Source: Pseudomonadota bacterium
GTDB lineage: Bacteria; Pseudomonadota; Gammaproteobacteria; Xanthomonadales; Ahniellaceae
DNA: 64,000 bases
Direction: 5' to 3'
NCBI GenBank assembly: GCA_022843465.1
Contig: JALHNO010000004.1
Location: forward strand, 1-64,000
Positions 53,643 through 61,607 of this stretch are shown one piece after another (position 1 is the first letter of the stretch; every line of letters begins with the position of its first letter). Both the position numbers and the translations under genes were made by a program. Under the pieces are notes generated by a model. The model searched no databases and was not told the DNA's origin. It saw only the letters and a list, made by a program, of their open reading frames with translations.

Positions 53643-54920
<1,278 letters not shown>

Positions 54921-55967
54921 ATGGACGAGTCGAAGCTGAACGATTTCATGGGAAAACTGGTTACCGATATGGGCGGTGCGGCCTTGATGGCCAATGTGCT
55001 CGTGGGTGCGGAACTGGGTCTCTACCGCGCGATGGCAGACGGCACGCCCACTACCTCCGAGGCGCTGGCAGCGAAGGCGGGCTGCAATCCACGCCTGATC
55101 CGGGAATGGCTGAACAATCAGGCGGCGGCGGGTTATGTTGAAGTAGACGACGGCAAGTTCCGTCTGCCTGAGGAGCAGGCGATGGCGCTGGCGGACGAGG
55201 ATTCGCCCGTCTACGTCGCCGGCGGTGCCTCGGTGCTGGCCAGCCTGTTCCTGGACAAGGACAAGGTCATTGCGGCGATGCGCGGCAACGGCGCGCTGTC
55301 CTGGGGCGAGCACCATCACTGCCTGTTCTCGGGTACCGAGCGGTTCTTCCGGCCGGGCTACCGCGCGCATCTGGTGGCCGAGTGGTTGCCCGCCCTGGAC
55401 GGCGTAGTGCCCAAACTCGAAGCGGGCGGCAAGGTCGCGGACGTCGGCTGCGGGCACGGTGCCTCGACGGTCATCATGGCCGAAGCGTTTCCGGCGTCGC
55501 GTTTCTTCGGATTCGATTTTCATGCGCCGTCGATCGCCACCGCACGGACGCGTGCTGCCGAGCGTGGCGTCGGCGACCGTGCGAATTTCGAGGTGGCCAG
55601 TGCCAAGGACTATGGCAACGGCGGCTACGATCTGATCTGCTTTTTCGACTGCCTGCACGACATGGGCGACCCGGTCGGTGCCGCCCGTCATGCCCTGCAG
55701 TCGCTGGCACCGGATGGCACCGTGTTGCTGGTCGAGCCGTTCGCCCATGATCGCCTCGAGGAAAACATGAATCCGGTCGGCCGCTTGTTCTATGCGGCGT
55801 CAACCTTCATTTGCACTCCGAATTCGCTGTCGCAGGAGGTTGGGCTTGGGCTTGGCGCCCAGGCCGGCGAAGCCCGTCTGCGCGCAGTGTTTGCCGAGGC
55901 TGGATTCAGTCGCTTTCGGCGGGCGACTGAAACCCCGTTCAACCTAATCCTGGAGGCGCGGCGCTAG
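54921..55967 (+). CDS. SAM-dependent methyltransferase with winged-helix N-domain
   Basis: 348 residues with an exemplary ribosome site (AGGAGG at 54909-54914). The N-terminal ~95 residues resemble the winged-helix dimerisation domain of O-methyltransferases (LGLYRAMADGTPTTSEALAAKAGCNPRLIREWLNNQAAAGYVEVDDGKFRL). Then come the SAM motif VADVGCGHGASTVIMAEAFP and the downstream FFDCLHDMGDPVGAARHAL. The substrate is unknown; the overall form is common among small-molecule O- or C-methyltransferases of uncharacterised type. Confidence 0.88.
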   Translation: MDESKLNDFMGKLVTDMGGAALMANVLVGAELGLYRAMADGTPTTSEALAAKAGCNPRLIREWLNNQAAAGYVEVDDGKFRLPEEQAMALADEDSPVYVAGGASVLASLFLDKDKVIAAMRGNGALSWGEHHHCLFSGTERFFRPGYRAHLVAEWLPALDGVVPKLEAGGKVADVGCGHGASTVIMAEAFPASRFFGFDFHAPSIATARTRAAERGVGDRANFEVASAKDYGNGGYDLICFFDCLHDMGDPVGAARHALQSLAPDGTVLLVEPFAHDRLEENMNPVGRLFYAASTFICTPNSLSQEVGLGLGAQAGEARLRAVFAEAGFSRFRRATETPFNLILEARR

Positions 55968-56297
55968 CAGGATGTCAGGAGGGTCGCGCTCGCCGTGCTT
56001 CTGTGGGCGGCGAGTGCTGAACCACAGGCTTCGGAAAGTAGACGTTGGCGCTGACGCAAGGAGCGCGGCCGCTCTGTTTCACGGCGCTCGGGCGCCGGGC
56101 TTCGGTCAGCGTACATGCCGCGCAGGGTCTGCGCGCTAGCGTGCGCTACCCTGGCGCCCGCATCAGAGGGAGCCGGTGCACTGCTGATTGCACGTGGGTG
56201 CGCAATCGACATCGCGCCAGTCTGCGCAGCCAACCCCGATTCGCGGCGCCCTATACTGCGGCCCCATCCGGCGACACGGGAGCGCCTTGGCCATTCC
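55968..56297. other. Intergenic region
   Basis: 330 bp with no supportable gene. TATACT at 56252-56257 could be a -10 for the next gene, about 40 bp upstream of its start; no good -35. Confidence 0.35.
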
Positions 56298-56798
56298 ATG
56301 GACATCAAGACGCATTGGCCCGAGATCCGGCGTGTGCTGCAGCGTGCACAGGTATCGACGATCCACTGTTCGCTCGCGAGCATCAGTCCGGATGGAATGC
56401 CCCATGTCACGCCGATCGGCACCGTGTTTCTGCGGGATGACTGCACGGGCTATTTTTTTGACCCGTATGCAACCGGCCTGGCCAGCAATCTTGATCGCAA
56501 TCCCAGCATCTGCCTGATGGCGGTCGATGCCGGGCGCATGTTCTGGTTGCGATCCCTGCTGCTCGGGCGATTCCCGCGTCCGCCCGGCGTGCGCCTGTAC
56601 GGCAGGGCAGGCGTCAGACGTGAGGCGACCGCGGATGAAATCGCCGCAGTCGCGGCACGGGTTCGGCCGACCCGCTGGTTGAAAGGCAATCGCATGCTGT
56701 GGTCCAACTTCAGCCACGTCAGAGACATCGATTTCACCGCGTTCCGACCGGTGCAGTACCCGGTCATGATGGCGGGTCTGTGGCGCGGTGACGCCTGA
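56298..56798 (+). CDS. Pyridoxamine 5'-phosphate oxidase-like protein
   Basis: 166 residues from ATG 56298. The split-barrel FMN-binding fold is suggested by VSTIHCSLASISPDGMPHVTPIGTVFLRDDCTGYFFDPYATGLASNLDRNPSICLMAVD, the standard opening of PNPOx-related proteins. The rest (RPTRWLKGNRMLWSNFSHVRDIDFTAFRPV) is not a known catalytic motif. The substrate is unknown; vitamin-B6 synthesis is not implied. Confidence 0.8.
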   Translation: MDIKTHWPEIRRVLQRAQVSTIHCSLASISPDGMPHVTPIGTVFLRDDCTGYFFDPYATGLASNLDRNPSICLMAVDAGRMFWLRSLLLGRFPRPPGVRLYGRAGVRREATADEIAAVAARVRPTRWLKGNRMLWSNFSHVRDIDFTAFRPVQYPVMMAGLWRGDA

Positions 56799-56951
56799 TT
56801 CGCAGTGGATGCAGAACATCCACCGCGAGCGGACCCGGCAACTGCGCGGCTGCCGGTCCCGCTACTTCAGACTGCTCGGCATCGTGGCCAGCAGCGGTCC
56901 GCCCGCATGGAATGCTGGTAGCCGGCAAGGCGGACGCAGTTAGTCGCCGCC

Positions 56952-57566
56952 TTGTCGGCACCGCTGAATGCGCGCATCATCGTCACGTCTGTTTCGCGCG
57001 GAGATCAGGTCATTCCTTCTCCCCCCACCGTGCCACCGCCGGCCCCGCTGCTGCTGGATCGTGTCTATCACGTCGTCCGCGCCTTGCCCGAGTCAGGCAG
57101 CGGAGCGGTCATCCCAGTGGGTACGCGACTACGACTGAGTGACTCGGTGATCGTCCCGCGTGATCTGGATCGTTATCTGGGCTTCCAGGATATGGGCAAC
57201 GCGCAAGCGGTCGCGCTGACCGAAGCGGATCCGCGCCTGCAGGCATTCTTTGAGCGACCCGCAGATTTCCTGCAGTTGTGCGAGTGTGCGCACGCCGAAC
57301 TGTCGCCTGAGTGTGCCGAGCGTCTGGCCGGGTTGGCTTGTGCGGTCATGGCAGAGGAATATCTGGTGACCTGGTGGCGCTGCTCCTGTGGCGCTCGGGT
57401 CGAAGAAATGCAGCGCGATTCGCTGACAGGATCCAGTCGCCGCGTATTTGAATTGTCGTTGCCTGAATTCGATCGGCGCGTTGCTCTGGCGCGAGACTGT
57501 CCTGAGCCGGCTGCTGCGAATTGCCGCTGTCCGGCCCATCAGGCACAACGCAGTGGCTTCGGATGA
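56952..57566 (+). CDS. Cys-rich protein of unknown function
   Basis: 204 residues from TTG 56952; a GTG at 57030 is the main alternative, and neither has a strong ribosome site. No family is recognised. Nine cysteines are clustered from residue 110 on: pairs C110/C112, C144/C146 (WWRCSCGA), C191/C193 (CRCP) and singles at 121, 130 and 183, suggestive of metal or Fe-S binding. The N-terminal ~30 residues are Pro-rich. The stop overlaps the start of the HEAT-repeat gene (ATGA), so the two form a coupled pair. Confidence 0.6.
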   Translation: MSAPLNARIIVTSVSRGDQVIPSPPTVPPPAPLLLDRVYHVVRALPESGSGAVIPVGTRLRLSDSVIVPRDLDRYLGFQDMGNAQAVALTEADPRLQAFFERPADFLQLCECAHAELSPECAERLAGLACAVMAEEYLVTWWRCSCGARVEEMQRDSLTGSSRRVFELSLPEFDRRVALARDCPEPAAANCRCPAHQAQRSGFG

Positions 57567-59011
57567 ATGGCCTGGATCAGGCCCGCGCCGCCTTGAGCGA
57601 TGATGATCCGCGCCGGCGCATCGAAGCGCTGCGCTTGCTTGCCGCGCACGGTGGACCGGCCTGCATTGCCGAGATTCTGGTGCTGCGCCATGACCCTGAT
57701 CCCTTCGTGCGCGGCACCGTGTGCCAGGCCCTGGGCATGCTGGGCGAAGGCGTCACGCCCGATATGCTCTTGCCCGCGTTGCATGACCCGGATGCACGAA
57801 CGCGTGGCCAGGCGACCTATGCGATCGAAGCCTGTGGTCTGCGCAGTGCGGCAGCGGTGCTGATTCCGATGCTGGCCGATCCCGAGCCGATGGTCAGGAT
57901 CCAGGTCGCGCAGGTGCTCGCGGTCTGGTCTCAGGCGGACGCATTGGCCGCAATCGAAGGGCGCATTGCGCTCGAGCGGCGGGCTGAAGTACGGGCGGCC
58001 CTGTTTCATGCGCGGCTTCGATTGCCCGATCCCCGGCATTACGCCCTGTTGTTGCGTGACGAGCGCTGGGAAACCCAGCATGGCGTATTGCGCAGCATCG
58101 CGCACAGCGGCTTGTCCGGCTGTGCCGACATGCTGGCGCATTTTCTGCGGAGCGCACATGCCGGCGTACGCCATGCGGCGGCTGCCGCCCTAGCGGATGG
58201 CGAATGTCCCGATTCTGGCCTGCTGCTTGCCTGTTGCGAGGCAGGTGAACCCGAGCTTGTGGCGGGTGTGCTCGCCGCGCTCGTTGATCATGCGCAACCA
58301 GATTTGCTTGCACTTGCGCGCAGGATGATGCTGCGGACCGACGCACGCGCACTGGTCGCGGCAGTCCGCTACATAGGTCGCCACGGTGACGACGCCGACA
58401 TCGGCTTGCTGAAGCGCTTCGCCCACGGCAAGCCGAGTGCTGTGCTCGATGCGGCAAGACTGGCCCTTGCCCAGTTGGAGGGCACTGCCGAGGTGCCTGA
58501 TGTCGAGCCTTTCCCATCGGGCCAAGCCGCAGTTGCGGTCATCCGGCAGCTTGCGGATTCGGGTGAGGCCGGGCAACGTTCCCGCGCCGGCATGATCGCG
58601 ATCGCCAATGGCTGGGTAGGCGCAGAGGAATCGCTGGCCATCCTCGATCGCGCGCGGGCACGCGGAGATGCGATCGCGGCCTGCGTTGTGCTCGCCTTGT
58701 CGCTGCAACCGGGCTCGGCGCTGGCCTCGGCAATGCGGCGGGCGCTCCACCCGGAGCCGATCAGCCGGTGGGAACATCTGGCTGATTTTGTCGGCAAGCT
58801 CGGCCTGGTCTGGACTGGGCCGATTCAAGGCCGTTTGACACAGCCGCTGCACAGCGGCGGTGAGGTCACTGCCCAGACGGTGTTGCTGAGATTGGCCGCC
58901 GCGACCGCGGCGCGGGCAATCTGCTGGCGTGCCGATGCGATCGGGGCTGCGCGGGTCTGGCAGGCTGTTGAGCAGGCACGGCTTCGATTGGCTGCGGGCG
59001 ATTTCCGGTAG
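57563..59011 (+). CDS. HEAT-repeat protein
   Basis: 482 residues from ATG 57563. Repeated ~30-residue helical units are clear: RIEALRLLAAHGGPACIAEILVLRHDPDPFVRGTVCQALGMLG, DARTRGQATYAIEACGLRSAAAVLIPMLADPEPMVRIQVAQVLAVW and HAGVRHAAAAALADG, typical HEAT/PBS-lyase-like repeats used as protein-binding scaffolds. No catalytic motif is seen. It overlaps the Cys-rich gene and lies upstream of ftsK. Confidence 0.82.
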   Translation: MNGLDQARAALSDDDPRRRIEALRLLAAHGGPACIAEILVLRHDPDPFVRGTVCQALGMLGEGVTPDMLLPALHDPDARTRGQATYAIEACGLRSAAAVLIPMLADPEPMVRIQVAQVLAVWSQADALAAIEGRIALERRAEVRAALFHARLRLPDPRHYALLLRDERWETQHGVLRSIAHSGLSGCADMLAHFLRSAHAGVRHAAAAALADGECPDSGLLLACCEAGEPELVAGVLAALVDHAQPDLLALARRMMLRTDARALVAAVRYIGRHGDDADIGLLKRFAHGKPSAVLDAARLALAQLEGTAEVPDVEPFPSGQAAVAVIRQLADSGEAGQRSRAGMIAIANGWVGAEESLAILDRARARGDAIAACVVLALSLQPGSALASAMRRALHPEPISRWEHLADFVGKLGLVWTGPIQGRLTQPLHSGGEVTAQTVLLRLAAATAARAICWRADAIGAARVWQAVEQARLRLAAGDFR

Positions 59012-59282
59012 CGCTTCGGCGCGTGGTGAGGTCGCACTGCTTCGGGTCTGGCCCGGGCGGGCGATCATGAGCCCGGATGGTGCTGCCTCCAGGCTTCGGC
59101 GCGGCAGTGGGTGCCAACATCGCATCGACGAATGGCGCGTGCCGTATTCTGGCGGCAGCGTGGCGTCTGCGGTCGGCCCATTTGGGCCTCCTACGATACC
59201 TGGGCCTGGCCGGTCGCTTGCTCGCTGCCGGATTGTCTACAGAACTCAGTAAGATGCGGACCTGAATCCGGAGAGTCGAGCC
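59012..59282. other. Intergenic region upstream of ftsK
   Basis: 271 bp without a gene. No good promoter: TTGTCT at 59233-59238 and TAAGAT at 59250-59255 are only 11 bp apart. Confidence 0.4.
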
Positions 59283-61607
59283 TTGACACGCAAGAATACT
59301 GAATCGCCTGCCAGTTCTGACGACAGTCTGTGGGATCGTCGCCTGCGCGAGGCCGCGGTGTTGTTGCTGCTGCCGATCCTGGTCTATCTGGCGATCTGTC
59401 TGTTTACCTACGATCCGGATGACTGGAGTTGGTCGCACGCCGGCGGCAACAACCCGGTGCACAATCTGGGTGGGGCGATCGGGGCCAAGGTGGCCGATTC
59501 GCTGCTGCAGTTGTTCGGTGGTGTCGCCTTCGTTTTCCCGCTGTTGCTGGCTGGCATCGCCTGGCGGCTGGTGCGCGATCTCAATCCCTTGCCGGGCACC
59601 ACGCGCGCCGATTCGGCCTGGCTGCTGCTCGGCTGTGTTCTGTTGCTGTTCACTGCCAGTGCGCTCGCGCATCTGCATCTGGACTTTGCTTCGTTGCGGC
59701 TGCCGGCGCAGTCGGGTGGGGTGCTCGGCGGATTGTTGGGCGATCTCACCCGCAGCGGCCTCGGCCATCTGGGCGCAACCCTGATCCTGTTCGGACTGAT
59801 GCTGATCTCGGTGACCCTGGTCACCGGCGTGTCCTGGTTCCGATTGATGGAACAGGTCGGCGACTGGACCTTGCGCCTGATCGCCAGTGCCCAGCGCCTC
59901 TGGCAGCAGCGCGCCGAGCAGCGCGAAACCCGTGCCGTGCAGGAAGAACGCGAAGAAGTCCGCAAGGTCGAGCGCGTCAAGCAGGCCAAGCGCGAACCGA
60001 TCCGCATCGAGCAGCCGCCACCGCCGGTTGAAAAAAGCGAGCGTGCCGCCCGCGAACTGCAGATTCCCTTGTTCGATGCCTTGCCTGCCGGTGAGTTGCC
60101 GCCGTTGTCGATCCTCGACGAGCCCAAGCAGCAGACCAAGGGCTATTCCAAGGAAACACTGGAGACCTTGTCGCGCCAGGTCGAGTTGAAGCTGAAAGAT
60201 TTCCGCATCGAGGCACAAGTGGTTGGTGCCTATCCGGGGCCGGTGATCACGCGCTTCGAACTGCAGCCGGCGCCAGGTGTCCGCGGCAGTCAGATCAGTG
60301 CCCTCGACAGCGATATCGCGCGGGGCCTTAGCCTGGTTTCGGTGCGCGTGGTCGATGTGATTCCCGGCAAATCGGTGATCGGTCTGGAAATCCCCAATAC
60401 CCATCGCGAAATCGTCTATCTCTCCGAGATGCTGCGCTCGAAGGAATACGACAAGCTCAACTCACCGCTGGCGCTGGCGCTCGGCAAGGACATCGCTGGC
60501 CGACCGACCGTGGTCGATCTGGCACGCATGCCGCATCTGCTGGTGGCTGGCACAACGGGATCGGGCAAGTCGGTGGCGGTCAATGCGATGGTGTTGTCCC
60601 TGCTGTACAAGGCGACCGCGTCGGAAGTGCGCATGCTGATGATCGATCCGAAGATGCTGGAACTGTCGGTCTACCAGGGCATTCCGCATCTGCTGGCGCC
60701 GGTCGTGACCGACATGAAGGAAGCCGGCAATGGTCTGCGCTGGTGCGTCGCCGAGATGGAGCGCCGCTACAAGTTGATGTCGGCGGTCGGCGTGCGCAAT
60801 CTCGGTGGCTTCAACAAGAAGGTCAAGGATGCCGCTGACAGCGGCCAGCCAATCCTCGATCCGCTGTTTGTTGCGCGCCCCGATATGCCCGAGCTGACCG
60901 CCGAGCCGCTTGAGCATCTGCCCTTCATCGTGGTCATCATCGACGAATTCGCCGACATGATGATGATCGTCGGCAAGAAGGTCGAGGAACTTATTGCGCG
61001 GCTGGCACAGAAGGCGCGTGCGGCCGGTATCCATCTGATTCTGGCAACGCAACGGCCGGATTCGGACGTGGTGACCGGTCTGATCAAGGCGAACATCCCG
61101 ACCCGGATCGCCTTCCAGGTTTCGACCAAGTTGAACTCCCGCATCATCCTCGACCAGGCCGGTGCCGAGGCGCTGCTCGGTCATGGCGACATGCTGTATC
61201 TGCCACCGGGCACCGGTGTGCCGGAGCGCGTGCACGGCGCCTTCGTCAGCGACGAGGAAGTGCATCGTGTGGTCTCGCACCTGAAATCGCACCAGGCGCG
61301 GCCGAGCTATATTCCGGGGGTGCTGGAGGAAGTGCAGAGCTTTGGCGATGGCATGGTGATCGGTCCGACCGGCTTGCCCGAGGCCGATGCCGACGCCAGT
61401 GGCGATATCGACCAGCTCTACGATCAGGCCGTCAAGATCGTCACCGAATCGCGGCGCGCCTCGATCTCGGGCGTGCAGCGCCGGCTGAAGATCGGCTACA
61501 ACCGCGCGGCCCGGCTGATCGAAGAGATGGAAGCGCAGGGCGTGGTGTCACCGCCCAGCCACAACGGCAACCGCGAAGTCCTGGCGCCGCCGCCACCGAA
61601 GGGCTGA
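59283..61607 (+). CDS. ftsK: DNA translocase FtsK
   Basis: 774 residues from TTG 59283 (GGAGAG just upstream). Four N-terminal membrane helices to ~residue 190, a short charged linker (the long Pro/Gln linker of E. coli is absent), then the motor: [12 protein letters not shown] (Walker A near 422-430), [12 protein letters not shown] (Walker B) and [31 protein letters not shown]. The C-terminal gamma winged helix ([43 protein letters not shown]) reads KOPS. It pumps DNA at the division septum and activates dif recombination. Length matches compact FtsK/SpoIIIE-type forms. Confidence 0.97.

Follow-up and report, generated by a model that had tools for sequence, protein, structure and literature searches.

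Gene arrangement between trxB and ftsK

The window, that is, the whole stretch of 64,000 nucleotides that was analysed, appears by eye to be mostly housekeeping DNA. Between trxB and ftsK it carries a block of four genes, with the following layout.

53643-54596, minus strand: trxB, left border of the block
54597-59282, no strand assigned: trxB-ftsK block, 4.7 kb, four genes
54921-55967, plus strand: methyltransferase with a winged helix like that of Rv2258c, part of the insertion that also holds P0001 and P0002
56298-56798, plus strand: pyridoxamine-phosphate-oxidase-like (PPOX) protein, PF01243 with E 2.7e-14
56952-57566, plus strand: P0001, ORF of 204 residues with a TTG start, nine cysteines and three CxC pairs, without a family
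57563-59011, plus strand: P0002, HEAT-repeat protein of 482 residues with an ATG start, Pfam repeats in its first half
59283-61607, plus strand: ftsK, right border of the block

The start codon of P0002 overlaps the stop codon of P0001 as ATGA at 57563-57566, and the two overlapping genes form an orphan pair. The coordinates, the ATGA overlap, the length of 482 residues and the nine cysteines given in the original prediction were all correct on rechecking. The start of the PPOX gene (ATG 56298) was set by hand; the query that matched PF01243 began at 56301, and the ORF list begins this frame at 56115.

The trxB-ftsK junction could be read in eight of the nine other members of the family, and P0001 and P0002 were missing from all eight. 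In four of them (G002, G006, G008 and G009; loci L041, L042, L047 and L039) trxB and ftsK are direct neighbours, their aligned parts being some 140-235 bases apart. In the other four (G003, G004, G005 and G007; loci L043, L044, L045 and L046) the spacer is about 1.3-1.4 kb, and an ORF of 354-399 residues was called in three of these spacers. The ninth member, G001, is the only one of them from the same genus; its contig begins near ftsK, so that it is left out of the junction count, and its draft genome gave no match to P0001 or P0002 anywhere. No repeats marking a mobile element stood out. The codon scores of P0001 and P0002 are low (0.041 and 0.107), which, together with the empty junction in the relatives, fits acquisition of the pair. 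In the favoured reading the pair is lineage-specific and was probably acquired by insertion between trxB and ftsK.

The methyltransferase has no full-length orthologue in the nine other family members; the PPOX gene was compared within the junction stretches of the relatives. The PADLOC profile mad2 matches residues 150-278 of the methyltransferase with E 1.2e-15, which probably reflects a shared domain only. All four genes are on the same strand, and P0001, P0002 and the methyltransferase are all without orthologues at the junction of the relatives. They might therefore be considered one small pathway, composed of the methyltransferase, the PPOX enzyme, P0001 and a HEAT carrier protein. However, gaps of 330 bases before the PPOX gene (from ATG 56298) and 153 bases before P0001 separate them, and the codon score of the methyltransferase is normal (0.264), in contrast to those of P0001 and P0002. 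A scan for promoters and terminators found nothing above shuffled sequence, so that the promoters gave no support either way. Such a pathway seems improbable.

The HEAT-repeat protein P0002

P0002 is certainly a genuine HEAT gene. The HEAT_2 profile (PF13646) matches four stretches with 88.4 bits against a cut-off of 27.7 (E 3.9e-25), and the HEAT profile (PF02985) gives E 3.6e-11. The description of the partner as a HEAT-repeat protein is therefore firm for the first half of P0002. For the last 153 residues Pfam gave no match even up to E 10. With a codon score of about 0.095-0.107, P0002 ranks lowest among the 47 called genes, whose scores run from 0.095 to 0.476.

The AlphaFold model of P0002 is all helical; the first 90 residues lie in a block with pLDDT of 70-90, and 274 of the 482 residues are below 50. 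Foldseek matched the model to alphaRep, armadillo and HEAT folds in the PDB, with TM values of 0.13-0.28 of the query among the 50 matches listed. These model-based matches only restate the solenoid fold. Sequence matches to alphaRep were also found, and the first half of P0002 thus shares both the repeat sequence and the all-helical fold with the HEAT_2/HEAT proteins (PF13646, PF02985) and the alphaRep designs. P0002 differs from them in that no full-length relative was found in the searches made and in its last 153 residues. The PADLOC profile HEAT-ARM_XIII matches the repeats, its best stretch covering 68 residues with E 2.3e-9; this profile has 1972 positions against the 482 residues of P0002, which indicates a shared repeat only. 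Identification as the phycobilisome degradation protein NblB was rejected, since NF045915 scored 27.3 bits against a cut-off of 300. HEAT enzymes of the deoxyhypusine hydroxylase type bind metal through His-Glu motifs within the repeats. P0002 contains no HE dipeptide, and assignment to this type was rejected as well.

Generic HEAT matches to P0002 were found in six other genomes of the 101 relatives and in 17 other genomes of the 369 of the class (at 1e-6); within the family there was one match, at E 0.004, in one other genome of 10. All of these genome matches were confined to residues 5-215. Scanning of short exact P0002 peptides in genome and viral contigs, which reaches close relatives only, found no relative, and tblastn against plasmids at 1e-5 found none. 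It should be mentioned that two adjoining HEAT-containing ORFs occur on contig C19 of G000 at about 77000-79100 (L049, 6983-9099). They lie downstream of two genes which, by eye, we take to encode an RNA polymerase sigma factor and an anti-sigma factor.

Coding status and relatives of P0001

The nine cysteines of P0001 are at positions 110, 112, 121, 130, 144, 146, 183, 191 and 193, all in the second half of the protein. The CxC pairs begin at 110, 144 and 191, and no CxxC is present. The cysteines had been described as occurring in C-x-C pairs, which holds for six of the nine; the other three are single. They make up 4.4% of the residues, compared with 0.83% for the called genes of the window taken together. 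The significance of these features was examined with 5000 dinucleotide shuffles and, for CxC, also by residue permutation. The shuffles contained 11.36 cysteines on average, with P = 0.835 for at least nine, so that as DNA the number is unremarkable, while for a protein of the window it is high. At least three CxC pairs occurred with P = 0.029 in the shuffles and 0.003 in the permutations. The frame was free of stops with P = 0.004, and its GC bias by codon position had P = 0.0006.

The absence of stops, the codon-position GC and the excess of CxC favour a coding frame, and P0001 also has the best codon score among the six frames of its stretch. The score of 0.041 per codon, however, is below that of all 47 called genes (0.095 to 0.476), and the total of 8.3 did not reach the threshold of 15 used by the caller, which did not call P0001 as a gene. 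Among 89 uncalled ORFs of at least 150 residues, some of which may be genuine genes, such as the PPOX ORF, 23 match or exceed the codon score of P0001. This low score is also compatible with a non-coding or newly arisen P0001. Of the possible in-frame starts (ATG, GTG or TTG), TTG 56952 comes first and GTG 57030 second, and no ATG occurs before 57192.

The frame of P0001 might be fortuitous or of recent origin, with the HEAT gene behind it standing alone; it would then be non-functional or at most a leader for coupled translation. This would be in line with its codon score, with a cysteine number equal to that of shuffled DNA, with the TTG start preceded by no ribosome site obvious by eye, and with the failure to find a homologue, described below. 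On the other hand, a chance frame would not readily be expected to be free of stops, to show phase-specific GC or to overlap exactly, as ATGA, with the real gene P0002, and without P0001 the 764 bases upstream of the HEAT gene would be non-coding. A chance frame is a serious but minority possibility, and P0001 is probably coding, though not certainly.

No family was recognised for P0001, in agreement with the original prediction. Pfam gave no match even at E up to 10, NCBIfam and PADLOC gave none, and the best match in PHROGs, at E 0.33, was insignificant. The genome sets overlap and were searched at different thresholds. At E ≤ 0.001, the only match among the 101 genomes of relatives, and likewise among the 369 of the class, was P0001 itself. 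Matches at E ≤ 1 occurred in 84 of 398 genomes of the order including its own, the best other at E 1.2e-4, and those at E ≤ 0.01 in 11 of 398 genomes of the phylum, again including its own, the best other (3.7e-4) having stops inside. Among the matches in the order, the best (G319) and that in its genus sibling (G284) were inspected. Both are antisense to long ORFs, presumably ImuB/DnaE2, and were rejected as chance. Scanning of short exact P0001 peptides in genome and viral contigs, which detects close relatives only and may omit the window's own genome, found no relative, and tblastn against plasmids and phages found no match. None of the collections searched, whether of genomes, viruses, phages or plasmids, yielded a believable homologue of P0001.

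The region 57042-57305 (residues 31-118 of P0001) shows a weak but recurring single-sequence likeness to RsmI, a 16S rRNA methyltransferase, with phmmer E values of 0.03 (PDB) and 0.043. In the search of the phylum, three genomes of one genus (loci L069, L070 and L072) match residues 31-115 with E values of 6e-4 to 3e-3, and the matched genes are RsmI (284-296 bits). An RsmI profile was built from 18 of 20 loci of the order, two with an internal stop being dropped; seven of the 20 are on the minus strand. With this profile P0001 scored -1.9 bits, a value reached or exceeded by 928 of 5000 shuffles, and homology as an RsmI fragment was rejected. That a single family is pointed to repeatedly is nevertheless odd.

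The arrangement of a small gene first and an overlapping solenoid gene second is also reminiscent of polymorphic toxin systems, in which P0001 would be a small toxin and P0002 its immunity partner. The Imm-HEAT class of immunity proteins has been described and is listed beside the toxin domain Ntox34 (PMC3482391), and the likeness lies in the position of the HEAT gene right after a small gene. P0001, in contrast, carries no known toxin domain, having no match in Pfam at E up to 10 or in PADLOC. No RHS, VgrG or secretion gene was recognised by eye, without a profile test, among the window ORFs of at least 250 residues, or of at least 80 near the pair. In addition, immunity proteins are usually shorter than 482 residues. 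A toxin-immunity pair, suggested by analogy, is unlikely.

Possible partnership and metal binding

HEAT repeats form superhelices, and the concave face is important in binding proteins (PMC11514114). Given this property and the translational coupling, binding of P0001 by P0002 is the most economical reading. The pair would have been inserted between trxB and ftsK along with the methyltransferase and the PPOX gene. P0001 would be a small soluble protein, translated just ahead of P0002 through the coupled ATGA overlap. The HEAT α-solenoid of P0002 would most likely serve as a protein-binding platform, and the protein bound there would most likely be P0001. A structural metal, e.g. zinc, could be held by the CxC pairs of the C-terminal half of P0001. 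We put the probability of the reading as a whole, an acquired lineage-specific pair in which the P0002 solenoid binds its coupled neighbour, at roughly 0.35. A working partnership of the two proteins is possible.

The ATGA overlap is the sole link between P0001 and P0002. The readings as a "new two-component complex" and as a "metal-binding" protein were proposed from just the adjacency of the genes and the three CxC pairs, and are to be taken as suggestions from sequence. The AlphaFold model of P0001, made with no alignment, has a mean pLDDT of 37; this model and that of P0002 seem too poor to decide between the readings. No second genome with the pair was found in the genome sets searched, and no conservation therefore stands behind the partnership. 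Absence of linkage in other genomes, which the original prediction named as a ground for refuting it, was indeed the outcome; as neither gene has an orthologue in the genomes searched, however, this does not contradict a linkage. At eight hand-chosen HEAT loci (L049, L050, L007, L051, L011, L016, L060 and L066) no ORF bearing CxC was called, with a codon model trained on the window that makes few or no calls at lower GC. At L050, an ORF about 2 kb from the HEAT ORF has 12 cysteines in 332 residues and no CxC. The titles and abstracts of the papers listed showed no such pair, which is not proof that none is in print.

Positions 57212-57240 of P0001 are 76% identical over 29 bases to 57589-57617, in the first HEAT repeat of P0002. 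The two segments are in the same phase and read ALTEADPR and ALSDDDPR. This likeness may be due to chance or to a shared origin of the sequences.

It is very doubtful that P0001 founds a new metal-binding family with a HEAT scaffold of its own, one that insertions have spread and that has so far been sampled once, and a single occurrence makes generalisation premature. If the partnership is real, P0001 would be a further case of an orphan protein that has a solenoid as its partner and lies in a strain-specific insertion.
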